Shown piece after piece: positions 13,647-42,604 of a stretch of DNA of 64,000 bases. Origin of the DNA: Priestia megaterium NBRC 15308 = ATCC 14581 (GTDB lineage Bacteria; Bacillota; Bacilli; Bacillales; Bacillaceae_H); NCBI RefSeq assembly GCF_000832985.1, contig NZ_CP009920.1, forward strand, positions 4,024,501-4,088,500, given 5' to 3'. Position numbers and translations under genes: made by a program. Within the stretch, counting starts at the first letter, position 1. Each line of letters begins with the position of its first letter. The notes under the pieces are model-generated. The model had not been told where the DNA came from, did no database searches, and was given only the letters and a program-made list of their open reading frames with translations.

Positions 13647-15056
13647 GTGAAGAATACATTTCAAGAGCACATAGAAGTCGACTGCTCCTCTAAAAAGTTT
13701 AACTGGTGGCATGCAGTTATAAATTCGATAAATGATGGTATTCTAGTTATCGACAAAAAAGGGATTGTTAGATTTATTAACCCAGAGTATACAAAGATTA
13801 CAGGAGTAAAAAGTGATATTATCGGAAAACCGCTAATAGAATATCGCCCAGGTGCTCAGTTAACAAATACCCTAAAAGATCAACAATGCAGAGTAGGCGT
13901 ATATCGAAAGGAAAAAAATCGGGAATATATGGTGGACATGGCTCCAATTATAATAGAAGGTAAACTTGCAGGAGCCGTATCGGTTTGTAAAAGTCTCAAT
14001 GAAGTTGATAAATTATCAAAAGAGTTAAGAAGACAAACGGAAAAGCTAAAGAATTTAGAAAACCGAATGGATTCTATTTATGAAGCAAAGTATACATTTG
14101 AACAAATAATTGGTGGGGACGGAGGGTTAAGGCACGTTGTTCATATAGCTGAAAAAGTAGCAGAATCTCAATTTCCTATTCTTGTGACGGGAGAAAGCGG
14201 CACGGGAAAAGAATTATTTTCACAGGCTATACATAATAAAAGTGAGCGCAAGCATGGTCCTTTTATACCTGTAAATTGTGCCGCTATTCCTTCGTCTCTG
14301 TTAGAAAGTGAACTTTTTGGATATGGAGACGGTGCTTTTACAAATGCTAAAAAAGGCGGGAAGGCTGGACTATTCGAAATAGCAGACAACGGAACTATAT
14401 TTTTAGATGAAATTGGAGATATGTCGTATGATCTTCAGGCTAAGTTGTTAAGAGTCCTACAAGAGAAAAAGATTCGAAGGGTAGGAGAAGCTACTGAACG
14501 TGCAGTGGACGTAAGAATTATTGCTGCTACACATCGCAATCTAAAGCAGCTTGTGAATAAAAAACAGTTTCGAGAAGATTTATTTTATAGACTTAACGTG
14601 ATTCAATTAGAGATACCTCCTTTAAGAAAAAGAAGAGAAGATATACGTGAACTCGTCTATTCTTTTATTAAATACTCGACCACCAACACTTCTTACAAAA
14701 TTGACGAATATACACTAGGTTTTCTTCAATCTTATCATTGGCCTGGCAACGTAAGGGAATTAAAAAATGTAATTGACTATGCAACATGCATGGCGGAAGA
14801 CACAGATATTGTATTTCGTCATCTCCCAGAATTTATGATTAAAAATGAAAAAAACTTTTCAGATATTGTAAGTAAAACAGAGAAATCTAGTCGAACACTG
14901 CAAGAAGCTATACAGGATAAAGAGTGTGCATTTATTCAGGAAATATTAAGAAAATATCCAAATAACATTGAGGGAAAAAAGAAAGCAGCAGAAGTTTTAG
15001 ATATTTCTTTAGCTACTTTATACAATAAAATGAAAAAATATCATATTCATTTCTAA
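13647..15056 (+). CDS. Sigma-54-dependent activator with PAS domain
   Basis: A 469-residue enhancer-binding protein. An N-terminal PAS sensor (about 20-115) is followed by a coiled linker (117-145). The AAA+ domain has Walker A GESGTGKE (182-189) and Walker B IFLDEIGD (251-258), and a Fis-type helix-turn-helix lies at about 447-465. The sigma-54 contact loop reads GAFTNA (229-234), not the canonical GAFTGA. GTG start 13647 has AAAGGAG upstream. The next genes lie behind a GG-N10-GC promoter with two matching upstream palindromes, so this protein very likely activates them. It should sense a small molecule through PAS; the ligand is unknown. Confidence 0.9.
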   Translation: MKNTFQEHIEVDCSSKKFNWWHAVINSINDGILVIDKKGIVRFINPEYTKITGVKSDIIGKPLIEYRPGAQLTNTLKDQQCRVGVYRKEKNREYMVDMAPIIIEGKLAGAVSVCKSLNEVDKLSKELRRQTEKLKNLENRMDSIYEAKYTFEQIIGGDGGLRHVVHIAEKVAESQFPILVTGESGTGKELFSQAIHNKSERKHGPFIPVNCAAIPSSLLESELFGYGDGAFTNAKKGGKAGLFEIADNGTIFLDEIGDMSYDLQAKLLRVLQEKKIRRVGEATERAVDVRIIAATHRNLKQLVNKKQFREDLFYRLNVIQLEIPPLRKRREDIRELVYSFIKYSTTNTSYKIDEYTLGFLQSYHWPGNVRELKNVIDYATCMAEDTDIVFRHLPEFMIKNEKNFSDIVSKTEKSSRTLQEAIQDKECAFIQEILRKYPNNIEGKKKAAEVLDISLATLYNKMKKYHIHF

Positions 15057-15068
15057 GTCTTTAGAAAG

Positions 15069-15088
15069 ATTTCTAGATTCTTAGAAAT
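15069..15088. promoter_or_regulatory. Upstream activator site 1
   Basis: ATTTCTA-N6-TAGAAAT, a perfect 7-bp inverted repeat immediately after the activator gene and about 200 bp upstream of the sigma-54 promoter. The same pattern recurs at 15137-15156. Confidence 0.65.
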
Positions 15089-15136
15089 GCTGAAGACTCT
15101 GTATTAAGAAGTGTATTTCTTTACCAAACAGCAGTT

Positions 15137-15156
15137 ATTTCTAAAACATTAGAATT
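15137..15156. promoter_or_regulatory. Upstream activator site 2
   Basis: ATTTCTA-N6-TAGAATT, the second copy of the palindrome, centred 68 bp from site 1 and about 140 bp before the -24 element. Paired dyads at this distance are the normal layout for enhancer-binding proteins. Confidence 0.65.
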
Positions 15157-15284
15157 TAGATTAACAAAAACAAAGAAAGAAAGCAGCTTTATTGGTGGCG
15201 CTTTCTTTTTTTGTTGTGTCTTAAATTTCTTTTATCACATTTTGAAAGGATTTAGTAACGGTTTGTTGCTATTCTTACATATCT

Positions 15285-15302
15285 TTGGCATGAATCCTGC
15301 AA
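15285..15302 (+). promoter_or_regulatory. Sigma-54 (-24/-12) promoter
   Basis: TTGGCATGAATCCTGCAA contains GG at 15287-15288 and GC at 15299-15300, exactly 10 bp apart, as in the consensus TGGCAC-N5-TTGCW. It precedes the transporter start by about 70 bp. Confidence 0.8.
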
Positions 15303-15372
15303 GAACAAAAAGTACCGAAGTTTTTTACATCTAAGATTTTTGAATCTATAAATTTAAGGCAGGGGGGATTAC

Positions 15373-16668
15373 ATGTTAGCACTATTAGGATTTTTAATTA
15401 TTGGTGTATTTCTATTTTTAATTATGACCAATCGTTTATCTGTATTGATTGCCTTAGTTCTCGTACCAACTGTTTTTGCGTTAATAGGCGGATTTGGGCT
15501 AGAAATGGGAGACATGATGTTAGAAGGCATTATAAAAGTAGCGCCTACAGGTATTATGATTGTTTTTGCAGTTTTGTACTTCGGCTTAATGATTGATACA
15601 GGCTTATTTAAGCCTATGATTTCTAAAATGCTTCGTCTAGTTAAAGGAGATCCGTTAAAAGTAGTCGTAGGGACAGCTATCGTCACAATGCTTGTATCAT
15701 TAGACGGAGACGGTGCATCTACTTTTATGATTACAATTACAGCGCTGCTACCTCTTTATAAGAGATTGAAGATGAATCCTCTTATTTTATCAGGAGTGGT
15801 TGCTTTAGGAGCAGGAGTTATGAACTTAGCTCCTTGGGGAGGACCTACTGCTAGAGCTATGACTACATTTAATGCAGATTCTTCTCAATTATTTAACCCT
15901 GTTATTCCCGCAATGATTGCTGGGATTGTATGGGTGTTAGCATCTGCGTTTTGGCTTGGGAAAAAGGAGAGGCAGAGACTAGGAGTCATTGAACTGGAAG
16001 AACATGTACAAGGGTTTACAGAACATGCAGCTGCTCTAGAAGCAAAAGGACCACGGCTTTTTTGGTTTAATCTTGCTTTAACAATTTTGCTTCTTATCGC
16101 GTTAATTAAAGTATGGCTACCTTTACCGATTTTATTTATTGTCGCTTTTGCAATTGCTCTTTTAGTGAATTATCCCAATCCAGAAGAGCAGCAAAAACGT
16201 TTACTAAGCCATGCAAACAACGTGTTAATTGTTTCTACGATGATTTTTGCTGCAGGCATTTTCACGGGTATTCTGACAGGAACAAAGATGATAGATGGAA
16301 TGGCCTCTGCAATGGTTAGTATTATCCCTGAATCACTAGCTTCTTACTTACCTGTACTAGTAGCGGTTACAAGTATGCCTCTTAGCTTAGTGTTTACACC
16401 GGATGCTTACTATTTCGGAGTATTACCAATTATTAGCCAGACGGCTTCTAACTTTGGCATCGATCCAATTGAAATTGGCAGAGCAGCTATTTTAGGACAG
16501 ATGACGACTGGATTTCCATTAAGTCCTTTAACCGCCTCGACCTTTATCCTTGTAGGGTTAGCGGGAGTAAATTTAGGCGATCATCAGCGTTTTATCTTTA
16601 AGTGGGCATTTGGAACGACCATTGTTATGACGATTGTGGCATTAATAACGGGAGCAATTACTATTTGA
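15373..16668 (+). CDS. CitMHS-family carboxylate transporter
   Basis: A 431-residue integral membrane protein with about 11-12 hydrophobic segments. It belongs to the citrate-metal/proton symporter family (B. subtilis CitM, CitH, YraO). Typical stretches are LVSLDGDGASTFMITITALLPLYKRL (split here as SLDGDGASTFMITI) and NLAPWGGPTARAM. It should import a di- or tricarboxylate, probably as a metal complex, across the cytoplasmic membrane. First gene after the sigma-54 promoter; AGGGGGG precedes ATG 15373. The next gene starts 10 bp after its stop. The real substrate is not fixed by sequence. Confidence 0.88.
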   Translation: MLALLGFLIIGVFLFLIMTNRLSVLIALVLVPTVFALIGGFGLEMGDMMLEGIIKVAPTGIMIVFAVLYFGLMIDTGLFKPMISKMLRLVKGDPLKVVVGTAIVTMLVSLDGDGASTFMITITALLPLYKRLKMNPLILSGVVALGAGVMNLAPWGGPTARAMTTFNADSSQLFNPVIPAMIAGIVWVLASAFWLGKKERQRLGVIELEEHVQGFTEHAAALEAKGPRLFWFNLALTILLLIALIKVWLPLPILFIVAFAIALLVNYPNPEEQQKRLLSHANNVLIVSTMIFAAGIFTGILTGTKMIDGMASAMVSIIPESLASYLPVLVAVTSMPLSLVFTPDAYYFGVLPIISQTASNFGIDPIEIGRAAILGQMTTGFPLSPLTASTFILVGLAGVNLGDHQRFIFKWAFGTTIVMTIVALITGAITI

Positions 16669-16678
16669 GGTGATAAAA

Positions 16679-18013
16679 ATGATAAGAATCGGATCAGGCG
16701 CAGGTTTTTCAGGAGATCGATTAGACCCAGCCGTTATATTGGCTGAAAAAGGAAATTTAGATTATTTAGTATTGGAATGTTTAGCCGAAAGAACAATCGC
16801 ACTTGCCCAAAAAAGAAAAAGTCAAAACCCTTTAATGGGTTATGATTCCTTGTTAGAAAAAAGACTAGAGCTTCTTTTACCTATTATTAAGAAAAAGAAA
16901 GTGCGAATCATTACCAATATGGGAGCAGCAAATCCAATAGGTGCTGCTGAAAAAGTTGTTGAAATAGCTAACCGACTAAACATTAGGATAAAGGTAGCAG
17001 CCGTAACGGGAGATGATGTACTAAAGTTGATAGATAGAAATGGATTGACTCTAGAAACAAATGAACCGCTATCTCATTTTGGTAACGTTATATCTGCAAA
17101 CGCTTACCTTGGTGTAGAAACAATGTTGCCAGCTCTAGAGACAGATGCTCAAGTTATTATTACTGGTAGAGTAGCAGATCCGTCTTTATTTGTTGCTCCA
17201 ATGGTACACCACTTTGGATGGTCTTTAGACGACGTAGATAAAATTGCTCAAGGAACAGTAATTGGACACTTATTGGAATGTGGGGGACAGGTAGCTGGTG
17301 GTTATTTTGCTGATCCCGGAAAAAAAGAAGTCTCAAAGCTTGCCGAATTAGGTTTTCCATTTGCTGATGTTAAAGAAGATGGGACAGCCATTATTACTAA
17401 AGTAGAAGGGACAGGAGGAGTCATTAACTTAGCTACTGTAAAAGAACAGCTTCTTTACGAAGTAACTAACCCTCATCAATATGTAACACCCGATGTTATT
17501 GCAGATTTTACTTCCGTTCATTTACAGGAAATTAAATTGAACCAAATTCAAGTGTCTGGTGGAACAGGTATACCAAGGCCTGAAACGTTAAAAGTCAGCG
17601 TAGGTTACGAAGCAGGTGTTATTGGAGAAGGAGAAATTTCCTACGCCGGATCCAATGCTCTAGAAAGAGCTAAGCTAGCTAGTGAAATTTTATATAAGCG
17701 TTTAAAAGATAAAGTAGTCGACTTAAGAATTGATTATATTGGTATTTCTTCTGTTCATAGAGTCTCTTTTCAAGAATCAGCTCCTTATGAAATTAGGCTG
17801 AGAGTAGCAGGGAAATGTCTTACTTCAAAGGAAGCAGCTAAAATTGGAGAAGAGGTAGAAGCTCTTTATACAAATGGACCCGCAGGCGGAGGCGGAGCAA
17901 GAAAGTATGTTAATGAAGTAGTAGGAATTATTTCTACGTTGATTTCACGTAACAAAATAGAAACACACCTTACATTGAAGGAGAGCTTAACAAATGAAAA
18001 AGAAATTATATGA
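16679..18013 (+). CDS. AtuA-family protein (DUF1446)
   Basis: A 444-residue protein of the acyclic terpene utilisation AtuA family, opening IRIGSGAGFSGDRLDPAV and containing LEKGNLDYLVLECLAERT-like and GRVADPSLFVAPM segments. The glycine-rich ANGPAGGGGARKYVNE-like C terminus is also seen. Biochemical function of AtuA is not established; genes of this type occur in terpene and organic-acid catabolic clusters. GTG 16670 is possible, but ATG 16679 is better spaced from GAGG. Its 3' end overlaps the next gene by 20 bp, the usual split arrangement. Confidence 0.87.
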   Translation: MIRIGSGAGFSGDRLDPAVILAEKGNLDYLVLECLAERTIALAQKRKSQNPLMGYDSLLEKRLELLLPIIKKKKVRIITNMGAANPIGAAEKVVEIANRLNIRIKVAAVTGDDVLKLIDRNGLTLETNEPLSHFGNVISANAYLGVETMLPALETDAQVIITGRVADPSLFVAPMVHHFGWSLDDVDKIAQGTVIGHLLECGGQVAGGYFADPGKKEVSKLAELGFPFADVKEDGTAIITKVEGTGGVINLATVKEQLLYEVTNPHQYVTPDVIADFTSVHLQEIKLNQIQVSGGTGIPRPETLKVSVGYEAGVIGEGEISYAGSNALERAKLASEILYKRLKDKVVDLRIDYIGISSVHRVSFQESAPYEIRLRVAGKCLTSKEAAKIGEEVEALYTNGPAGGGGARKYVNEVVGIISTLISRNKIETHLTLKESLTNEKEII

Positions 18014-18305
18014 ACTTGCTCACAGTCGAGCTGGAGATAAGGGAAACACGCTTATGTTATCACTAATTCCATATAACGAAAAAGATTATTTCTTATTACG
18101 TGAAAAAGTGACTGCTTCGGAAGTAAAAAAACACTTAAAAAATATTGTAGAAGGAGACATTGTTCGCTACGAAGTTCCTAATATATCAGCATTTCAATTT
18201 GTATGTCACCGCGCGTTACTTGGTGGGGTCACTACTTCTTTAGGAATGGATACGCACGGAAAGAGCTTAAGTTATGCCCTGCTGGAAATGGAAGTAGACA
18301 TTTGA
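17994..18305 (+). CDS. AtuA-associated small protein (ferredoxin-fold partner)
   Basis: A 103-residue protein beginning KKLYELAHSRAGDKGNTLMLS. This pattern (AHSRAGDKGN) is typical of the small domain that forms the C-terminal part of longer AtuA proteins or is encoded separately right after them. It starts inside the end of the AtuA gene (20-bp overlap), so translation is probably coupled and the two products likely form one complex. Function unknown beyond that association. Confidence 0.85.
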   Translation: MKKKLYELAHSRAGDKGNTLMLSLIPYNEKDYFLLREKVTASEVKKHLKNIVEGDIVRYEVPNISAFQFVCHRALLGGVTTSLGMDTHGKSLSYALLEMEVDI

Positions 18306-18333
18306 ATAATAGTATAAAGGAGGTACTTTATCA

Positions 18334-19440
18334 GTGAACAATACGTCAATACAAAAAGTTCTAAGCTTTATTACTGTAGGAGTTCTTATTCTAGCTTTCC
18401 TTCCTTTCAATATTCTTGCAGCAAAAGAAGAAAATAATTATAGAAACGTAAAAAAACCAACCTCTTCAGTTTTATCAGGTACCTATTATTTGGAGCAGAA
18501 GGTTGAATTAAAGACAAACACGCCAGGTGCGGAAACTTACTATACACTTGACGGGAGCACTCCGACTACTAAAAGCACTCAGTATACAAACCCGATTATT
18601 ATTAATAACGATACGGTGCTTAAAGCAATTTCCATAAGAGGAAACGCGAAAAATAAAAATCAAAAGAATCATAGTAATCTAGCTATATTTACTTATTCAT
18701 TTGAAAGTAGAGAATCTATAGCTACTCAATTTTTATCATTCACTTATAAAACAATGCCCTACCGACTTTATGTGCCTAAAGACTATGATTCTACAAAATC
18801 ATATCCCTTGGTGCTATTCTTACATGGAGGTGGTGAACGAGGAAATGATAATACAAAACAGCTTCTTGGCAACGACGGGGCTATCGTTTGGGCTTCACCA
18901 GAAAATCAACGAAAGCATCCCGCTTTTATTTTAGCTCCTCAAGCTCGTAATGTACCAAGCGGAGGCTTCACCGTTACAAGAGACGATAACAACAAAGTCG
19001 ACTTAGCAAAAGTGTTCCAAACATCAGAAGATTTAAAAACGGCTTATGAAATTTTACAAAGTGTAAGAAAATCCTACAATATAGATCGTAATCGCCTTTA
19101 TTCTACAGGATTATCTCAGGGAGGATTTGGCACATTTAACTTAAATATAGAACACCCTGATTTGTTTGCTGCTATGGTGCCGATAGCGGGAGGAGCCAAT
19201 CCAGCTAAAGCGCACTTTCTTATCAACAAACCAATATGGGCATTTCATGCTGAAGACGATTCTATCATTCCTGTGGCCTATTCAAGGAATATAATAAGTG
19301 CTATAAAAAAATCTGGAGGGCATCCGCTATATACGGAATATCCTAAAGAGTTAGAGTATGATCATGCTTCGTGGGTTTCTGCGTATCAAAATCAGAAAAT
19401 GATTGATTGGATGTTTCAGCAGGTGAAGCAAACAAATTAG
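18334..19440 (+). CDS. Secreted alpha/beta-hydrolase esterase with N-terminal chitobiase-type domain
   Basis: A 368-residue exported protein. A signal peptide (about 1-30, cleavage near ILAA) is followed by a beta-hexosaminidase C-terminal-type domain at about 42-105 (ETYYTLDGSTPTTKSTQYT). The rest is a PHB-depolymerase/prolyl-oligopeptidase-like esterase domain. Proposed catalytic triad: S261 in G-L-S-Q-G, D308 or D309 in AEDDS, H344 in DHASW; oxyanion segment FLHGGGERGN at about 162-171. GTG start with AAAGGAGG upstream, 28 bp after the AtuA partner and with no terminator between. It is therefore probably the last gene of the sigma-54 operon. Confidence 0.85.
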   Translation: MNNTSIQKVLSFITVGVLILAFLPFNILAAKEENNYRNVKKPTSSVLSGTYYLEQKVELKTNTPGAETYYTLDGSTPTTKSTQYTNPIIINNDTVLKAISIRGNAKNKNQKNHSNLAIFTYSFESRESIATQFLSFTYKTMPYRLYVPKDYDSTKSYPLVLFLHGGGERGNDNTKQLLGNDGAIVWASPENQRKHPAFILAPQARNVPSGGFTVTRDDNNKVDLAKVFQTSEDLKTAYEILQSVRKSYNIDRNRLYSTGLSQGGFGTFNLNIEHPDLFAAMVPIAGGANPAKAHFLINKPIWAFHAEDDSIIPVAYSRNIISAIKKSGGHPLYTEYPKELEYDHASWVSAYQNQKMIDWMFQQVKQTN

Positions 19441-19472
19441 TAAAAAATAAAGCTCGATACTTCATTATTCCT

Positions 19473-19514
19473 AAAAAGCTCTTCCAGTTAATAAGAACTG
19501 GAAGAGCTTTTTGC
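19473..19514 (+). terminator. Intrinsic terminator of the sigma-54 operon
   Basis: Perfect 17-bp arms (19473-19489 and 19496-19512) around loop AATAAG, ending in a T-run. Confidence 0.92.
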
Positions 19515-32114: not shown

Positions 32115-32131
32115 TTGGCACGGTACTTGCA
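32115..32131 (+). promoter_or_regulatory. Sigma-54 promoter of acoABCL
   Basis: TTGGCACGGTACTTGCA is an exact match to TGGCAC-N5-TTGCA, with GG-N10-GC spacing. It precedes acoA by about 50 bp. Confidence 0.93.
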
Positions 32132-32178
32132 AGAGTAATTAAGTGAAGTTTGATAATCAAATGAGGAGGCTTACCATA

Positions 32179-33171
32179 ATGAAAACTGCTCAAAATAAAA
32201 CAGAAAAGCTTACGAAAGAAAAAGCCAGCTGGATGTATCAGAAAATGGTAGAAATTCGAAAGTTTGAAGATGAAGTACATCAAATTTTTGCAAAAGGTGT
32301 ACTGCCTGGTTTTGTTCATCTGTATGCAGGTGAAGAAGCGATAGCGGTTGGAATGTGCGCTCACCTTAATGACAATGACAGTATTACGAGCACTCATCGT
32401 GGACACGGTCATTGTATTGCTAAAGGCGGCGATTTGGATGGGATGATGGCTGAACTATTTGGGAAGGTAACCGGGTTAGGCAAAGGAAAAGGCGGATCTA
32501 TGCATATCGCGGATTTAGATAAAGGAATTTTAGGAGCAAATGGAATTGTAGGAGGAGGATTTCCGCTTGCATGCGGTTCTGCTTTAACTGCTAAGTATAA
32601 AAAGACAAAAGATGTAAGCGTTTGCTTTTTTGGAGACGGAGCGGGCAATGAAGGGACGTTTCATGAAGGAATTAACTTAGCAGCCATTTGGAAACTGCCT
32701 GTTGTTTTTGTTGCTGAGAATAATGGCTACGGAGAGGCAACTCCATTTTCTTATGCTTCAAGCTGCAGCACGATTGCAGACCGTGCCGCAGCTTACAACA
32801 TTCCAGGCGTACGAGTGGATGGAAAAGACGTGATGGCTGTTTATGAAGCAGCTGCAGAAGCTATTCAACGAGCTCGCAGAGGGGAAGGCCCAACGTTAAT
32901 TGAATGTGTAACGTATCGAAATTACGGGCATTTCGAAGGAGACGCACAAACGTATAAATCAGGCAGTGAAAAGAAAGAACATCTCCAAGAAAAAGATGCT
33001 ATTGCTCTTTTTGAAAACTATTTGCTTTCAGAACAAGTAGTAACAGAAAAAGAGCTCAGAGATATTGAAGGTGATGTAGAAAAAGCAGTAAAACGCGCGG
33101 TTGAGCTAGCAGAAACAAGCGATTATCCTGATGCTTCCGAACTATTAACAGATGTTTATGTATCTTACTAA
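32179..33171 (+). CDS. acoA: Acetoin dehydrogenase E1 alpha subunit
   Basis: A 330-residue thiamine-diphosphate-dependent E1 alpha subunit, part of the complex cleaving acetoin to acetaldehyde and acetyl-CoA. The TPP motif is visible as GDGAGNEGTFHEG followed by NLAAIWKLPVVFVAENN, and GHGHCIAKGG lies upstream. An upstream start at 32143 is open, but GAGGAGG sits 9 nt before ATG 32179. It is the first gene of acoABCL, behind an exact sigma-54 promoter. Confidence 0.95.
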   Translation: MKTAQNKTEKLTKEKASWMYQKMVEIRKFEDEVHQIFAKGVLPGFVHLYAGEEAIAVGMCAHLNDNDSITSTHRGHGHCIAKGGDLDGMMAELFGKVTGLGKGKGGSMHIADLDKGILGANGIVGGGFPLACGSALTAKYKKTKDVSVCFFGDGAGNEGTFHEGINLAAIWKLPVVFVAENNGYGEATPFSYASSCSTIADRAAAYNIPGVRVDGKDVMAVYEAAAEAIQRARRGEGPTLIECVTYRNYGHFEGDAQTYKSGSEKKEHLQEKDAIALFENYLLSEQVVTEKELRDIEGDVEKAVKRAVELAETSDYPDASELLTDVYVSY

Positions 33172-33189
33172 TTAAAGGGGGAAAAGAAG

Positions 33190-34224
33190 ATGACTAGAAA
33201 ATTAAGCATGTCTGAAGCTATCAATGAAGCAATGAAACTAGCGATGCGAAAAGATGAGAATGTGATTCTGCTGGGAGAAGATGTAGCTGGCGGAGCGGAA
33301 ATTGACCACCTGCAAGATGATGAGGCGTGGGGCGGGGTCCTTGGGGTGACAAAGGGGCTTGTGCAAGAATTTGGACGTGAACGAATTCTTGATACGCCTA
33401 TTTCAGAAGCAGCTTATATAGGAGCTGCAATGGGAGCGGCAGCTACGGGGTTAAGACCGGTTGCAGAATTAATGTTTAATGATTTTATTGGATGCTGCTT
33501 AGATCAAGTGCTGAATCAAGGCGCAAAATTTAGATACATGTTCGGAGGAAAAGCAGAAGTGCCTGTTACAATTCGAACGACTCATGGAGCTGGATTTAGA
33601 GCTGCAGCTCAGCATTCTCAGAGCTTGTACGCTTTGTTCACTAGCATTCCTGGCATTAAAGTAGTGGTCCCTTCTAATCCTTACGATGCAAAAGGTTTAT
33701 TATTAGCAGCAATTGAAGACAATGATCCGGTTATCTTTTTTGAAGACAAAACATTGTACAACATGAAAGGTGAGGTTCCTGAAGGCTACTATACGATTCC
33801 ATTAGGAAAAGCGGACGTGAAACGCGAAGGAACGGATTTAACTATTGTAGCGATTGGCAAACAAGTAAATACTGCACTTACAGCAGCAGATCAATTATCT
33901 CACAAAGGAATTGACGTAGAAGTAGTCGATCCGCGAAGTCTATCCCCTTTTGACGAAGAGACGATTCTTTCTTCTGTAGAAAAAACGAATCGATTAATTG
34001 TTATTGACGAAGCCAACCCAAGATGCAGCATAGCAACAGACATTGCTGCGCTAGTTGCTGATAAAGGATTTGACATGCTTGATGCACCTATTAAACGAAT
34101 TACAGCGCCACATACACCTGTGCCATTTTCACCTCCATTAGAAGATATTTATCTGCCAACACCGCAAAAAGTAATTGAAGTTGTATCGGAGTTACTAGGA
34201 GATAAATCGCTTTTAAGCGTGTAA
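33190..34224 (+). CDS. acoB: Acetoin dehydrogenase E1 beta subunit
   Basis: A 344-residue transketolase-like beta subunit. It has an N-terminal pyrimidine-binding domain (LGEDVAGG, TPISEAAYIGAAMGAAATG) and a C-terminal transketolase domain (VVDPRSLSPFDEETI). Together with AcoA it forms the E1 heterotetramer. It is spaced 18 bp from acoA, with AGGGGG before ATG. Length and motifs match the family. Confidence 0.95.
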   Translation: MTRKLSMSEAINEAMKLAMRKDENVILLGEDVAGGAEIDHLQDDEAWGGVLGVTKGLVQEFGRERILDTPISEAAYIGAAMGAAATGLRPVAELMFNDFIGCCLDQVLNQGAKFRYMFGGKAEVPVTIRTTHGAGFRAAAQHSQSLYALFTSIPGIKVVVPSNPYDAKGLLLAAIEDNDPVIFFEDKTLYNMKGEVPEGYYTIPLGKADVKREGTDLTIVAIGKQVNTALTAADQLSHKGIDVEVVDPRSLSPFDEETILSSVEKTNRLIVIDEANPRCSIATDIAALVADKGFDMLDAPIKRITAPHTPVPFSPPLEDIYLPTPQKVIEVVSELLGDKSLLSV

Positions 34225-34249
34225 GTAAAGAGAAAGGGGGAGGAAGCAA

Positions 34250-35476
34250 ATGGCTGCAGAGGTTGTAATGCCGAAACTAGGTATGGCAATGAAAGAAGGA
34301 ACCGTTTCGACATGGAATAAAAAAGTTGGAGACTCCGTTTCAAAAGGAGATATGATTGCAAGCATTAATTCTGAAAAAATAGAAATGGAAATTGAAGCTC
34401 CGCAGGACGGTGTGATTCTTGATATTCTTGTGCAAGAAGATGTAGGGGTGCCTCCTGGAACGATTATCTGTTATGTTGGAAAGCCAAACGAGCAGCTTAC
34501 TGAGCAAAACAGTTCAGCAAATGAGCTCCAGGCTCCCAAAAACGAAGTAGCTGCCACTATTTCTTTAGAAGAGCCGCCAGCAAACGCAGCTTCATCAAAG
34601 AAGAGCAAAGAAACGGTGCTTATTTCACCAATTGCACGGAAAATAGCAGAATCTGAAAACCTTAATGTTGAAACGATTAAAGGCACAGGACCAAAAGGAA
34701 GAATCACCAAAGCAGATGTAGAGAAAGTGCTGGCGGAAAGAGCTTCAGAAGCGAGTCGTCCACCAGCAGAAATAGATAAAGCTATAAAAAAAGAAACGCT
34801 TCCAGTAGCGGGCATGAGAAAAGTCATTGCAAGTCGAATGCATAATAGTTTATTAAACAGTGCCCAATTAACGATTAATATGAAAGCTGACGTGACGGAT
34901 TTGCTGTCTCTGCAACGGGAAATCAAAGATTTGATCCAACAACGCCATAAGGTGAAGATATCTCTAACTGATTTTATTGCTCGCGCTGTTGTTCTTTCAC
35001 TTCAAGAACATAAACAAATGAACAGTGCTTATATAGATAACGAAATTCATCTCTATAACCATGTTCATCTTGGAATGGCCGTAGCCTTAGAGAATGGGTT
35101 AGTAGTCCCTGTTGTGCAACATGCTGAAAAGATGTCGTTAGTTGAATTAGCTGCAGAGATCAAAACACGAGCAGCAGATGCTCGGCAAGGTCAACTGAGC
35201 ACTGATAGGATGCAAGGTTCAACATTCACTATTACTAATCTGGGTGCTTACGGAGTAGAGTATTTTACACCTGTATTAAATCCGCCTGAAACAGGAATCC
35301 TTGGTGTTGGAGCTACTGAAGATGTACCGATGTATAAAGGAGACAATTTACAAAGAAGAAACGTGCTGCCTTTAAGCCTGACGTTTGATCATCGCGTACT
35401 GGACGGGGCACCTGCAGCTAATTTCCTTGGAACTATTAAACAATACTTAGAGCAACCTATTTTACTACTCTTATAG
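34250..35476 (+). CDS. acoC: Acetoin dehydrogenase E2, dihydrolipoyl acetyltransferase
   Basis: A 408-residue E2 core. The lipoyl domain (1-78) carries the lipoylated lysine K43 in SEKIEME, the peripheral-subunit-binding domain lies at about 123-160 (SPIARKIAESENLNVE), and the catalytic domain ends with FDHRVLDGAPAANFLG. It transfers the acetyl group to CoA. It is separated from acoB by 25 bp with a GGGGGAGG ribosome site, and continues the operon. Confidence 0.94.
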   Translation: MAAEVVMPKLGMAMKEGTVSTWNKKVGDSVSKGDMIASINSEKIEMEIEAPQDGVILDILVQEDVGVPPGTIICYVGKPNEQLTEQNSSANELQAPKNEVAATISLEEPPANAASSKKSKETVLISPIARKIAESENLNVETIKGTGPKGRITKADVEKVLAERASEASRPPAEIDKAIKKETLPVAGMRKVIASRMHNSLLNSAQLTINMKADVTDLLSLQREIKDLIQQRHKVKISLTDFIARAVVLSLQEHKQMNSAYIDNEIHLYNHVHLGMAVALENGLVVPVVQHAEKMSLVELAAEIKTRAADARQGQLSTDRMQGSTFTITNLGAYGVEYFTPVLNPPETGILGVGATEDVPMYKGDNLQRRNVLPLSLTFDHRVLDGAPAANFLGTIKQYLEQPILLLL

Positions 35477-35492
35477 AAAGTTGGTGCATTCC

Positions 35493-36872
35493 GTGAAACC
35501 TTTAGTTGTCATTGGCGGCGGTCCTGCAGGATATGTGGCGGCAATCACTGCCGCCCGGCAAGGAAAACAAGTTACGTTAATCGAACAAAAAGATTTAGGT
35601 GGCACCTGTTTAAATGAGGGCTGCATGCCAACAAAGTCATTATTAGCAAGCGCGGAAGCCTACGAGAAAATCAAGCAAGCTGAGCAATTCGGCATCAATC
35701 TTCCTTTAGAACAAGTGAAAATTAACTGGGATGGCGTTCAGCATCATAAAACAACCATTGTTAAAAACTTGGTCAAGGGAATCAGCTATTTGATGAAAAA
35801 GAACAGTATTAAAGTCATAAAAGGAGAAGCTTCTTTTTTGACAAATCATTGTCTAGCCGTGCGAAACGAAAATCACGTAGAAGAGATAGAGGCTGAACAG
35901 TTTATTATTGCTGCGGGTTCAGAACCTGCTAGCCTGCCATTTGCTCCTTTTGATGGAAAGTGGATCATTCACAGTAAACAAGCAATGTCGCTGCCTGCTA
36001 TCCCTTCATCTCTTTTAATAGTAGGAGGGGGTGTAATTGGATGTGAATTTGCAAGCATTTACAGCCAAATGGGAACAAAAGTAACGATTGTGGAAGCGGC
36101 AGATCAGCTGCTTCCTGGTGAAGATGCCGACATCGCATTTACGTTACAGGAAGAATTAGAGAAAAAAGGCGTGGCAATTTATACATCCTCTTCGTTAACA
36201 GAAATGCAGCCAAAAGATAAAACAGCTCTATTTAAACACAAAGAAGAGCTGCATGAACTGCAGGCTGAGTATGCATTAATTTCAATTGGAAGAAAACCTA
36301 GAGTGCTAGGTTTGGGTTTAGAACAGGTTGGCGTACATTTTTCAAAACAAGGAATTGATGTTAATGAGCATATGCAAACGAATATACCTAATATCTATGC
36401 TTGTGGAGATGTAGTTGGCGGAATTCAGCTTGCTCATGTCGCCTTTCATGAAGGCACAGTTGCTGCTTTGCACGCATGCGGAAAAGATAAGAGCGTAAAT
36501 TATCGAGCTGTACCCCGCTGCATTTATACTCACCCTGAGATTGCAAGTGTCGGTATGACAGAAAAGCAGGCTCGAAGCGAATACGGCGATATTCGCGTCG
36601 GAGAATTCTCGTTTACGGCAAATGGTAAAGCAATGATTGCAAATGAGTCCGTTGGAAAAGTGAAAGTAATCGTAGAACCGCAGTTTAATGAAATTATTGG
36701 GCTTTCCATTGTAGGTTCATATGCTACAGAATTAATTGGACAAGGAACCATTATGATGCACGGAGAGCTGACCACAGATATAATGGAAGACTTTATCGCT
36801 GCCCACCCTACATTATCTGAAGCCATTCACGAAGCTCTTTTGCAGTCGGCGGGTCAGGCCGTTCACTCCTGA
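35493..36872 (+). CDS. acoL: Dihydrolipoyl dehydrogenase (E3) of acetoin complex
   Basis: A flavoprotein of about 459 residues that reoxidises lipoamide. The FAD motif VIGGGPAGYVAA is at the N terminus, the redox-active disulfide is in GGTCLNEGCMPTKS, the NAD motif is IVGGGVIGCEFASIYSQMG, and the C-terminal catalytic pair lies in AAHPTLSEAIHEALLQ. The start is uncertain: TTG 35481, GTG 35484 or GTG 35493. The last best aligns with the B. subtilis AcoL start. Last gene before the operon terminator. Confidence 0.94.
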   Translation: MKPLVVIGGGPAGYVAAITAARQGKQVTLIEQKDLGGTCLNEGCMPTKSLLASAEAYEKIKQAEQFGINLPLEQVKINWDGVQHHKTTIVKNLVKGISYLMKKNSIKVIKGEASFLTNHCLAVRNENHVEEIEAEQFIIAAGSEPASLPFAPFDGKWIIHSKQAMSLPAIPSSLLIVGGGVIGCEFASIYSQMGTKVTIVEAADQLLPGEDADIAFTLQEELEKKGVAIYTSSSLTEMQPKDKTALFKHKEELHELQAEYALISIGRKPRVLGLGLEQVGVHFSKQGIDVNEHMQTNIPNIYACGDVVGGIQLAHVAFHEGTVAALHACGKDKSVNYRAVPRCIYTHPEIASVGMTEKQARSEYGDIRVGEFSFTANGKAMIANESVGKVKVIVEPQFNEIIGLSIVGSYATELIGQGTIMMHGELTTDIMEDFIAAHPTLSEAIHEALLQSAGQAVHS

Positions 36873-36939
36873 TTACGCAGGTGCCCAAGTTATTAAACTC
36901 TTTGAGGATGAAAAGTAAAAATGAATGATTCAAAAAGAT

Positions 36940-37003
36940 AACTAGAGGATGAAGGAATCACGGAAGCGGTATAGTAGTTTTCCTGCATCCTCGTCTAGTT
37001 TCT
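36940..37003 (+). terminator. Terminator of acoABCL
   Basis: AACTAGAGGATG pairs with CATCCTCGTCTAGTT through a small bulge; TTTCTTTATT follows. Confidence 0.7.
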
Positions 37004-37050
37004 TTATTAATTTTTACATAACGTGAGTTTAAAAATCTATCATTTGGTAA

Positions 37051-37064
37051 TGATAACGTTTTCT
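37051..37064 (+). promoter_or_regulatory. Putative cre at the acoR promoter
   Basis: TGATAACGTTTTCT matches the cre consensus at all but two fixed positions. It lies just before a TATAAT at 37073-37078, where CcpA would block acoR transcription; acoR is CcpA-controlled in B. subtilis. Confidence 0.45.
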
Positions 37065-37136
37065 TTGTGATTTATAATAATGGTAACAAGCCTTGATTTA
37101 CTATATTCAATTAAGTTTATAGGGGAGAGGTCAGAA

Positions 37137-39014
37137 ATGGAATCCACACTTTCTTTAAACACATGGAAACGTTTTGTAAACGAAGGAGCACTTGAATCTT
37201 CAAGATTAAACGACATTATTGTAAAGTCATGGCATCGTTGTAAAAGCGCAGATGTTAATCCTTACCTAGATAAAGGCAGATCGATTTTAAGAAATGAAGA
37301 CTTTCATTCTCGAAAACAAATGAACTCTTTATTTCTTGAGACGGCTTTGCCACACTTAGAAAGAATCAGACAATCAGCGGCGGACTTAGGAATGGTTGCT
37401 TTATTAATTGACCCAGAAGGCTATATTTTATCTATTACAGGAAATAGACTTACACTGAATGAAGCAAGGAAAATTAATTTTGTGGAAGGTGCCTGTTGGA
37501 CAGAAAAAGAAGTAGGCACAAATGCAATCGGTACGGCTCTGCAAACGGAAGAGCCTATTATGATAACGGGTACAGAACATTATTCGATTGCTTCGCATCA
37601 ATGGAGCTGTTCGGCAGCGCCTGTTCGAAATGACGACGGAAATTTAATTGGGATTATTAATATTTCTTGTCCTGTAAACAGAGCTCACCCTTATACACTT
37701 GGGATGGTTACGTCCATTGCGTATACAATTGAGCGGGAGTTAAGCATTCGAATGCACAAAGACGAAATTGAGTTGGTTCACGCTTCTATGAATTTTGTTG
37801 ATAGCAAACAGCTCTTGTTGCTTTGCAATTACAAAGAAGTGATTGTGGGAGCAAGCAAAACCGTGCGAGAATGTATACCAAAATGGTCAGGTCTGCAGTT
37901 AAATACGATTGTACAACAGGGATTTCGTATAGTGATGGAAGTGCCTGTAACCTCAAAAAGACACGGTCATTCTATTGGAAAGATTATTTATTTATCAGAA
38001 GAAGCGCACCACAACCAAACAACTACACAGATCCCTGCTCAATCATTTTCTTTTAAAGGAGAAGCAGGCATAAGCCGTTCCTTTCAGCAAACACTAGAAG
38101 AAATAAAGCATGCGGCTCCTACGGATACAACTGTCTATATTTTAGGGGAAACAGGTACCGGAAAAGAAGTAATAGCTCAAACAATTCATGAAAACAGCTC
38201 GCGTAAAAACGGGCCTTTTATTGCTCTTAATTGTGGTGCTATTCCGAAAGAACTTATGGAAAGTGAATTATTTGGCTATGTGGATGGAGCATTTACAGGA
38301 GCACGGCGTCAAGGATATCAAGGAAAGTTTGAGCTGGCTAATCACGGTACGATTTTTCTTGATGAAATAGGTGAACTTCCTCATTCTATGCAAGTTTCTT
38401 TGTTAAGAGTATTGCAAGAGCGCAAGGTAACGCCTGTTGGAAGTAATCAGGAAATTCCGGTAGACATCCGGATTATTACCGCTACTCATCGAGATCTTCG
38501 TCAACTTGTCAGTGAAGGGAAGTTTCGAGAAGATTTATATTACCGGCTCCACGTGTATCCCGTGCATGTTCCGCCTTTGCGAGAAAGGAAAGAAGATATT
38601 CCACATCTGATGCGCTACTTTTGTCAAAAGAATGCTTGGAATATGAATTTCCCCAAGGAATTAGTAGATAAATTAATAGATTATCAGTGGCCCGGCAATA
38701 TTCGAGAATTATTTAATGTACTTGAACGCTTGAAGATCTCGCTTAAAACAGAAGCAGAAAAAGAGAAGATATTGAATTATTTGAGTTCTTTAAATCTTGG
38801 TGGCCAAAAGAACATCTCTAACTCTGATACTTCACAAGAAATAGAAGACAATGATTTTACGTCCCTCCCCGTACTCACATTTCGTGAAAAAGTTCAAAAA
38901 GACTTAATGATGGATGCTTTACGTAAAACACAGGGAAATGTGTCACTTGCCGCTAAGCTGTTAGATATACCAAGAAGTACATTTTATAACAGATTAAAAA
39001 AATTCAATTTGTAA
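37137..39014 (+). CDS. acoR: Sigma-54-dependent activator of the acetoin operon
   Basis: A 625-residue enhancer-binding protein. An N-terminal GAF-type sensor (about 55-200, CWTEKEVGTNAIGTALQT) is followed by an AAA+ domain with Walker A GETGTGKE (about 336-343), canonical GAFTGA (about 384-389) and GTIFLDEIGELP. A Fis-type helix-turn-helix forms the C terminus (AAKLLDIPRSTFYNRLKK). A GTG at 37080 is open, but GGGGAGAGG precedes ATG 37137. It follows acoL after a terminator and has its own TATAAT promoter. It should act on the inverted repeat and sigma-54 promoter before acoA. Confidence 0.94.
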   Translation: MESTLSLNTWKRFVNEGALESSRLNDIIVKSWHRCKSADVNPYLDKGRSILRNEDFHSRKQMNSLFLETALPHLERIRQSAADLGMVALLIDPEGYILSITGNRLTLNEARKINFVEGACWTEKEVGTNAIGTALQTEEPIMITGTEHYSIASHQWSCSAAPVRNDDGNLIGIINISCPVNRAHPYTLGMVTSIAYTIERELSIRMHKDEIELVHASMNFVDSKQLLLLCNYKEVIVGASKTVRECIPKWSGLQLNTIVQQGFRIVMEVPVTSKRHGHSIGKIIYLSEEAHHNQTTTQIPAQSFSFKGEAGISRSFQQTLEEIKHAAPTDTTVYILGETGTGKEVIAQTIHENSSRKNGPFIALNCGAIPKELMESELFGYVDGAFTGARRQGYQGKFELANHGTIFLDEIGELPHSMQVSLLRVLQERKVTPVGSNQEIPVDIRIITATHRDLRQLVSEGKFREDLYYRLHVYPVHVPPLRERKEDIPHLMRYFCQKNAWNMNFPKELVDKLIDYQWPGNIRELFNVLERLKISLKTEAEKEKILNYLSSLNLGGQKNISNSDTSQEIEDNDFTSLPVLTFREKVQKDLMMDALRKTQGNVSLAAKLLDIPRSTFYNRLKKFNL

Positions 39015-42025: not shown

Positions 42026-42604
42026 ATGTCGAAACAAGAACAAGAAAGTGAATACACAATAAAAGATGCATCATTGTTTGGATTCAAATTAATGCAGGTA
42101 AGTAAAGCCATCTGGAGAGCTGCGGAAGATGACTGGGAGCAATGGGTGAAACCTTATGGACTAAACGTAAATGAGCATCATATTTTATGTTTAGCTAGTA
42201 ACACGGGAGAAATCTCTATGTCAGAGTTAGCTAATTTAGGAGCTATGCATATCTCTACAGCGTTTAATTTTTCGAAAAAATTAGAAAATCAAGGGTATCT
42301 GCACTTGTCCAAAAGAGAAAATGATAAAAGAAACACCTACATCAAATTGACTGAAAGGGGCGAACAATTATTGCTTGATACGCTCAAAGGGTATGAACCA
42401 CATAACAGTAAGATATGTAAAGGTGCACTTCCTTTAAAAACGTTATACGGCAAATTCCCCGCTTTTCCAGAGCTAGTAACCGTTGTTCGCCATGCTTGCG
42501 GCGGCGAGCTTGTGACCGTTGCTGATCAACCTTTTGTGAATATAAAAGAAGCGGAAATAGAAGAAAATGAAGATAAGAAAGAAGTCCAGCTAACTAGTAA
42601 TTGA
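42026..42604 (+). CDS. MarR-family regulator of the Hpr/ScoC type
   Basis: A 192-residue regulator with clear resemblance to B. subtilis ScoC (Hpr). Shared stretches include LNVNEHHILCLA, MHISTAFNFSKKLENQGYL and REDKRNTYIKLTE-like text, with the ScoC-specific C-terminal part PLKTLYGKFPAFPE and an acidic tail. ScoC represses protease and sporulation genes. The divergent sequence (CGGELVTVADQ near 155-165) suggests a paralogue rather than the main ScoC. Spacing of 232 bp from the PLP gene suggests its own promoter. Confidence 0.82.
   Translation: MSKQEQESEYTIKDASLFGFKLMQVSKAIWRAAEDDWEQWVKPYGLNVNEHHILCLASNTGEISMSELANLGAMHISTAFNFSKKLENQGYLHLSKRENDKRNTYIKLTERGEQLLLDTLKGYEPHNSKICKGALPLKTLYGKFPAFPELVTVVRHACGGELVTVADQPFVNIKEAEIEENEDKKEVQLTSN

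Follow-up and report, generated by a model that had tools for sequence, protein, structure and literature searches.

A conserved sigma-54-type operon of Priestia megaterium that joins a secreted esterase and a CitMHS importer to a predicted AtuA-family carbon–carbon lyase

The AtuA family (PF07287, for which DUF1446 is presumably the old name) was founded on AtuA of the acyclic terpene utilisation (Atu) pathway. Two described systems bring members of this family close to the cutting of carbon–carbon bonds. One is citramalate lyase subunit A (CmlA; PDB entries 9erq and 9evf), whose function is given by its deposited name. The other is ThnQ with ThnS of anaerobic naphthalene degradation, an ‘AtuA-like lyase’ for which the available part of the source, citing unpublished results, reports cleavage at a tertiary hydroxylated carbon to a 3-oxoacyl-CoA (PMC12016498). 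Here, we analyse an operon of P. megaterium NBRC 15308 = ATCC 14581 (NCBI RefSeq assembly GCF_000832985.1) in which an AtuA-family gene and the gene of a small partner protein lie between a citrate-type importer gene (CitMHS) and a secreted esterase gene, behind the gene of an enhancer-binding protein (EBP). The operon lies in the 64,000 nucleotides of contig NZ_CP009920.1 from 4,024,501 to 4,088,500, called the window below and numbered from its first letter. That AtuA-type proteins can be C–C lyases is already known; what we add is a specific lyase reaction, predicted from sequence comparison. It gives a testable reaction to a large subfamily whose sole annotation, ‘acyclic terpene utilisation’, is misleading.

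The operon and its control region

The features of the unit, all on the forward strand, are the following.

13647–15056, + strand: EBP with PAS, Sigma54_activat, AAA_lid_14 and HTH_8 (Fis-type helix-turn-helix) domains, over the Pfam cut-offs
15050–15067, + strand: dyad 1, an exact match to the core TTTCTAA-N4-TTAGAAA, spanning the EBP stop codon
15070–15087, + strand: dyad 2, one mismatch to the core; exact as ATTTCTA-N6-TAGAAAT at 15069–15088
15138–15155 (also as 15137–15156), + strand: dyad 3, one mismatch to the core
15169–15215, + strand: probable intrinsic terminator of the EBP transcript (−22.6 kcal/mol, z −6.3, 0 of 200 shuffles)
15286–15301, + strand: −24/−12 sigma-54-type promoter TGGCATGAATCCTGCA, from a pattern match and recurrence in relatives
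15373–16668, + strand: CitMHS-family carboxylate symporter (TIGR00784, 595 bits against a cut-off of 259.7)
16679–18013, + strand: AtuA-family protein, proposed catalytic subunit of a lyase (PF07287, 504 bits against 22.8, positions 1–435 of 437)
17994–18305, + strand: AtuA ferredoxin-like partner, a separate small subunit of 103 residues (PF23544, 114 bits)
18334–19440, + strand: secreted esterase with an N-terminal CHB_HEX_C_1/Fn3-associated domain (CHB_HEX_C_1 and Esterase domains)
19472–19513, + strand: intrinsic terminator of the operon (−25.9 kcal/mol, z −6.6)

At the level of sequence, the operon and its sigma-54 control region with several dyads are both conserved. The AtuA and partner reading frames overlap by exactly 20 bp (17994–18013), and in the 28-bp gap before the esterase gene no hairpin is better than those of shuffles (z 0.04). 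The neighbours on the 5′ side are xylose isomerase, xylulokinase and sugar transporter genes, and beyond the operon terminator lies a cytochrome oxidase subunit II gene, which we take to be a qox gene; with sugar genes upstream and a terminator and an oxidase gene downstream, the unit is bounded on both sides. The hairpin at 15169–15215 stands between the dyads and the promoter. It probably ends the EBP transcript; its T-run was read by eye and it is absent from the list of the terminator scanner. An earlier note on this DNA, made from the letters alone, had described a PAS-containing EBP, two matching dyads, a GG-N10-GC promoter, CitMHS, AtuA with a small partner in a 20-bp overlap, and a secreted esterase with no terminator before it. 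All of these hold: the genes are identified by domain models, the two dyads are those at 15069–15088 and 15137–15156, and the promoter recurs in relatives. The third dyad (15050–15067), which is the best one, had been missed, and the note is silent on the hairpin.

Relatives of the locus were taken from a protein-level scan of genome contigs, in which the best 80 of 530 loci were named (19 from Bacillota and 61 others; L numbers denote the genome stretches compared), and from a survey of Bacilli with an AtuA match at E 1e-60 in 37 of 398 genomes. This survey gave a high-scoring AtuA set of 15 stretches (two of which, L118 and L119, repeat the named loci L010 and L013) and a lower-scoring set of 11. 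An orthologue of the EBP, at a minimum of 45% identity, accompanies 16 of the 19 named Bacillota loci and none of the 61 others, and an EBP is found in 11 of the 15 high-scoring Bacilli stretches. For the control region, the stretch between EBP and operon was scored in 27 Bacillota loci chosen by hand for a nearby EBP, with dinucleotide shuffles as the chance expectation. The set includes the close relatives L028/L033, L055/L077 and L036/L041/L123, and omits L022, L118, L139, L140 and L143 (repeats or near-copies) and L128 (operon start elsewhere). It should be noted that the contig of L077 is labelled Pseudomonas sp. ISL-84, while its locus has the Bacillota form with EBP and dyads; the label is probably wrong and the locus was counted as Bacillota.

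Within the window, the dyad core with at most one mismatch occurs at four sites (the three dyads and 42270–42287) compared with 0.13 expected, a count that none of 100 shuffles reaches, and dyad 1 is the sole exact match among the window’s dyads. The −24/−12 pattern is insignificant in the window alone (38 of 100 shuffles reach its one-mismatch count of 8) and owes its significance to its recurrence in relatives. Of the 27 Bacillota loci, 19 have a dyad with no more than one mismatch (0.06 by shuffles), 18 have two or more dyads with no more than two mismatches each (0.01 by shuffles) and 20 have a −24/−12 site that matches at 9 or more of 11 positions (0.45 by shuffles). Thirteen of the 27 have three dyads, the starts of the first two being 20–31 bp apart and the third lying 59–80 bp beyond. 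The genome also holds two sigma-54 genes above the family cut-off (C6:3017899–3018378 and C6:1881124–1881600; reading frames in L165 and L166).

Some observations speak against this regulatory assignment. We found no dyad in five of the 27 loci (L028, L033, L036, L041 and L123), two of which, L028 and L033, carry a variant dyad, and a good −24/−12 site is missing in seven. The GAFTGA loop of EBPs contacts sigma-54, and the motif is regarded as essential; the loop of the window EBP reads GAFTNA. Among the loops of its orthologues (32 entries, some repeated), GAFTGA and GTFTGA occur once each, GAFTNA, GSFTHA and similar forms being usual. The unit has the EBP domain set, the upstream dyads, the −24/−12 promoter and a genomic sigma-54, and lacks the canonical loop; we consider it very probable that the unit is sigma-54-controlled. 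The PAS domain is conserved like the AAA+ domain (mean majority fraction 0.74 versus 0.70 over 25 rows), which fits one common ligand, and it may sense the substrate of the operon.

We also considered a wider dyad regulon and rejected it: genome-wide there are 13 sites with at most one mismatch, compared with nine for a control pattern, and three of the 13 belong to the operon. Another of the 13 lies between the genomic genes for thiolase and 3-oxoacid CoA-transferase (SCOT; L154, 5537–5554) and is treated as chance because it stands only about 34 bp before its gene, with no −24/−12 site found between. Other regulators occur at relatives of the locus. The Solibacillus loci L040 and L062 are without an EBP and have a LysR-type regulator gene directly before CitMHS instead. 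A NUDIX plus NrtR winged-helix regulator is found near many Bacteroidota loci (18 loci; for example L045, L051 and L200–L202), often directly before the esterase–CitMHS–AtuA genes, and perhaps replaces the EBP there.

The three-gene core and its esterases

The CitMHS–AtuA–partner core recurs in two distant phyla, as judged from tblastn searches of the neighbourhoods. CitMHS lies near AtuA in 72 of the 80 named loci, to which L021, with a CitMHS tail at the end of its contig, is additional, and the partner accompanies AtuA in 79, the exception (L065) ending at a contig end directly after AtuA. The subfamily is widespread: among 390 sampled genomes of the order around L027 (Emticicia), labelled Cytophagales here, 60 match AtuA with an E of at most 1e-140, and all 59 loci compared further contain both CitMHS and the partner (some Bacteroidota genomes are in both samples). 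In the high-scoring Bacilli set CitMHS is adjacent to AtuA in 11 of the 15 stretches, in one more (L120) the EBP intervenes, and the partner is present in all 15. Invariant residues of the partner include R12, G14-D15-K16-G17, D86 and G89-K90. The window CitMHS matches the citrate symporter model TIGR00784, a match that does not imply the substrate. Four more full-length CitMHS genes are found elsewhere in the P. megaterium genome, and in a tree of 44 rows (unrooted) these paralogues stand apart from the AtuA-linked rows with support 83/90.

Bacilli also have lower-scoring AtuA paralogues, a separate subfamily with 35–41% identity, which has the partner in 11 of 11 stretches and CitMHS in none; in L133, the only one checked, the partner is followed by two acyl-CoA dehydrogenase-like genes. 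On these grounds we rejected, for the window AtuA, terpenoid catabolism, which the earlier note had proposed to examine with terpenoid acids. One Bacilli genome (G067; L129 and L133) has three AtuA copies, including a tandem pair.

Esterases of several kinds are attached to the core. Outside Bacillota we compared five esterase queries with the two same-strand genes that precede CitMHS. Loci were included if CitMHS had been called upstream of AtuA with three or more genes of sequence before it; genes farther than five before CitMHS, or farther than four after AtuA, served as background. An esterase was found in 39 of 49 testable named loci against 1 of 168 background genes, and in Cytophagales in 36 of 50 loci against 1 of 74; these counts may be low, reading-frame calling having dropped frames that overlap the long AtuA frame. 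Several families are represented, namely carboxylesterase type B, Esterase (PF00756) and Abhydrolase_10, and overlapping esterase families top a Pfam tally of 117 operon-mates (116 of 168 non-near-duplicate mates kept by distance plus one SCOT protein added by hand, with L124 and L138 omitted). In addition, a sulfatase gene stands directly before CitMHS, beside esterases, in L044, L048, L073, L204, L208–L210, L214 and L216.

The window esterase has a signal peptide and a GLSQGG serine motif, both read by eye, and its closest solved sequence is the esterase of PDB entry 3doh (E 6e-62). With 68.7 bits against a cut-off of 150 and 50.1 against 107.85, it falls short of the NCBIfam models for polyhydroxybutyrate (PHB) depolymerases. 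It recurs in only three of the 19 named Bacillota loci (L009, L012 and L014) and in the close Priestia relatives L003 and L004, and so is an exchangeable accessory to the three-gene core. In Priestia endophytica the place between EBP and CitMHS is taken by an unrelated hydrolase (Abhydrolase_10, with a weak Tannase hit and a secretion signal read by eye). Its gene opens the operon and is preceded by three dyads and TGGCATGCATCTTGCA. The earlier note had expected all four genes to co-occur in relatives; the three-gene core does, the exact esterase does not. Its biological idea, that an esterase releases a carboxylate outside the cell for import by CitMHS and processing by the AtuA pair, is largely right. 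What supports it most strongly is that ester hydrolases of several kinds are joined, in two phyla, to a single core of importer plus enzyme.

The reaction and the acid

A profile of 60 AtuA rows finds one convincing solved structure, that of CmlA (E 7e-7), and together with the report on ThnQ and ThnS this makes the earlier statement that AtuA has no assigned reaction outdated. A betaproteobacterial paralogue, L234, serves as a bridge, with a match to CmlA at E 1.8e-101 and 21% identity with the window AtuA. A 19-row alignment that includes both L234 and the window protein has 15 invariant positions, among them G163, R164, D167, E200, C201, Y260, E261 and P265, and the R, D, EC, YE and P positions are also present in the CmlA alignment. 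The window AtuA covers the full length of PF07287, shares core residues with a member of assigned reaction and forms, with its small partner, a two-part enzyme. It is not CmlA proper: its single-sequence E to CmlA is 0.24, and its partner belongs to PF23544 and is not of the DUF4387 type. Judging from the neighbour of L234, a DUF4387 protein may be CmlA’s own partner; the PF23544 partner and DUF4387 have no similarity in an hhalign comparison (probability 0.4%; a weak test with one DUF4387 sequence). The betaproteobacterial genome G414 holds four further CmlA-type AtuA paralogues (L233–L236), L234 having a TctC gene besides its DUF4387 neighbour and L235 an MmgE/PrpD gene.

The CmlA homology, the ThnQ/ThnS report and the context of DUF1446 genes, which lie downstream of methylaspartate ammonia-lyase in the available part of PMC4682846, suggest a common chemistry for the AtuA family, namely cleavage between a tertiary carbinol carbon and the carbon beside a free carboxylate to give a ketone and acetate or another carboxylate. 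We consider it likely that AtuA and its partner are a C–C lyase of this kind acting on a tertiary hydroxy acid. Our searches of the literature returned nothing on an AtuA–CitMHS operon, DUF4387, a citramalate lyase subunit or a 3-hydroxy-3-methylglutarate lyase.

The neighbours of the core point towards one acid. A SCOT (TIGR02428/TIGR02429) is encoded in the same gene string in L040, L062, L042 and L060, and in L128 by BLAST to L040. In L128 (genome G353) the order is SCOT-A, SCOT-B, thiolase (acetyl-CoA acetyltransferase), CitMHS, AtuA and partner, with gaps of at most 44 bp, and then the EBP. The SCOT genes start 7 bp past the partner in L060 and 53–54 bp past it in L040 and L062; in L042 one MFS gene precedes them. 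All the SCOT genes found in the 171 stretches of relatives that were searched for neighbour genes sit in such strings (5 of 5 loci); a thiolase gene about 6 kb before CitMHS in L017 was left uncounted. A gene resembling 3-hydroxy-3-methylglutaryl-CoA (HMG-CoA) lyase was found in none of the 171, and the P. megaterium genome holds SCOT, thiolase and an HMG-CoA-lyase-like gene together elsewhere (L154). Where a CoA ligase would otherwise be expected there is a free-acid importer, either CitMHS or, in L013, a TRAP system (DctP, DctQ and DctM, in the CitMHS position). The SCOT genes at five loci, once with thiolase, favour the conversion of 3-hydroxy-3-methylglutarate to acetoacetate. This acid is citrate with a methyl group replacing one carboxyl, and it is an acyl group of plant glycosides.

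In the mechanism that we propose, the EBP would sense the acid or its product through the PAS domain, bind the dyads and open the promoter with sigma-54. The secreted esterase would free a hydroxy-carboxylate from its ester outside the cell, and CitMHS would import it. AtuA and the partner, without CoA activation, would then cut the C–C bond between the tertiary carbinol carbon and the CH2-COO− group to give acetate and an oxo-acid. With 3-hydroxy-3-methylglutarate, the most likely substrate, the products would be acetate and acetoacetate, the latter continuing through a SCOT and a thiolase encoded elsewhere in the genome. That esterase, importer and lyase act together, whatever the acid, seems to us somewhat more probable than the contrary. 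The choice of 3-hydroxy-3-methylglutarate is tentative and falls short of an even chance. Still a little below it we place the full statement, that the pair is a CoA-independent 3-hydroxy-3-methylglutarate lyase at the centre of a route of Bacillota and Bacteroidota, in which secreted esterases strip the acid from plant conjugates and HMG-CoA is never formed.

Several points count against this proposal. The gene string includes SCOT at only 4 of the 80 named loci, 1 of the 15 high-scoring Bacilli loci and 0 of the 59 Cytophagales loci, the last of which weakens the acetoacetate argument for Cytophagales. L040 and L062 are of the same genus (Solibacillus), and the association is one of raw counts. 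CitMHS is not visible in seven of the 80 named loci, namely L013, L063 (273 bp of sequence), four betaproteobacterial loci and one deltaproteobacterial locus (L050, L059, L068, L076 with 1.5 kb, and L079). The window esterase is an accessory whose substrate is conjectural. The distance of the window AtuA from CmlA in the single-sequence comparison means that the reaction may have diverged. The ThnQ/ThnS result rests on unpublished work, as the available part of PMC12016498 states, and in the Atu pathway the step at the tertiary hydroxyl is assigned to LiuE, not to AtuA, in the part of PMC4097962 available. Finally, the methylaspartate ammonia-lyase route beside DUF1446 genes leads to citramalate (PMC4682846, in part), and in betaproteobacterial L050 the partner is followed by a thiamine-pyrophosphate enzyme annotated as acetolactate synthase; both contexts fit citramalate and pyruvate better.

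These last points belong to the rival in which the AtuA pair acts like CmlA, as a citramalate lyase that needs no CoA, splitting citramalate (for example from plant hydroxycinnamoyl esters) into pyruvate and acetate. CmlA is the only convincing solved homologue of AtuA, and a citrate-type importer would suit this acid as well; on the other hand, the CmlA-like L234 is distant from the window AtuA and has a DUF4387 rather than a PF23544 neighbour, and SCOT and thiolase in the gene string are unneeded for pyruvate, so that we regard citramalate as unlikely. Citrate itself has the same tertiary hydroxyl and CH2-COO− group and the importer falls in the citrate:proton symporter subfamily, so that the pair could be a two-part CoA-independent citrate lyase yielding oxaloacetate and acetate in an operon that scavenges citrate esters. 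However, three of the four other genomic CitMHS proteins fit the citrate model better (671, 668 and 647 bits) and all four group apart from the AtuA-linked ones in the unrooted tree, an aerobe normally needs no lyase for citrate, and SCOT and thiolase would be left unexplained; this reading is quite improbable.

As a further rival, the unit might serve 3-hydroxybutyrate or other short acids from polyester oligomers, with a depolymerase-like esterase, acetoacetate formed by oxidation and AtuA not a C–C lyase. The window esterase indeed matches PHB-depolymerase models weakly (E 5.6e-19), the P. endophytica hydrolase matches a 3-hydroxybutyrate-oligomer hydrolase model, and a short-chain dehydrogenase/reductase gene after SCOT in Solibacillus matches a 3-hydroxybutyrate dehydrogenase model, but every one of these matches is under its cut-off. 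That route would leave a citrate-type importer and a CmlA-type lyase without a role, and related AtuA proteins are described as C–C lyases; we hold this to be very improbable. Alternatively, the esterase gene could be a bystander, a neighbour read through from the operon for want of a terminator and with no metabolic link in Priestia, as its narrow distribution would suggest. Against this stand the varied esterase families at the core outside Bacillota and the unrelated secreted hydrolase that opens the P. endophytica operon, and a mere bystander is improbable. If the 3-hydroxy-3-methylglutarate proposal is true, the AtuA lyases have a free-acid branch, families of secreted esterases are tied to a food source outside the cell, and an uncharacterised EBP of Bacillota gains an inducer and a binding site.

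Comparison with known systems

The nearest regulatory counterpart lies in the window itself. An aco-like 2-oxoacid dehydrogenase operon (32116–39014) likewise has a sigma-54-type promoter, an exact TGGCACGGTACTTGCA site at 32116–32131, and a dedicated EBP of 644 residues (37080–39014). It differs in substrate and enzymes, its EBP has the canonical GAFTGA loop, and it has no such dyads at one mismatch. For the esterase, the closest solved sequence (3doh/3doi, which we take to be a Thermotoga esterase with an immunoglobulin-like domain) aligns only over the catalytic part (residues 124–364).

Among the enzymes, CmlA belongs to the same AtuA family, and the GR..D, EC, YE and P positions are invariant across the bridge to it; it differs by an identity of only about 20% through this bridge and by the DUF4387 neighbour of the CmlA-like bridge gene, where the window AtuA has a PF23544 partner. 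ThnQ and ThnS are likewise AtuA-like, consist of two gene products and are reported to cut at a tertiary hydroxylated carbon to a 3-oxo product. They differ in that the substrate is a CoA ester and the operon one of β-oxidation, the compared part of whose gene list shows neither CitMHS nor an esterase (PMC12016498). The founder of the family differs in build and in setting: AtuA of Thauera is listed, in the part of the source available, at 615 residues in one protein, whereas the window has two proteins, and the Atu pathway, whose tertiary-hydroxyl step is assigned to LiuE in PMC4097962, works in an acyl-CoA context, whereas the window operon appears equipped for the uptake of a free acid.

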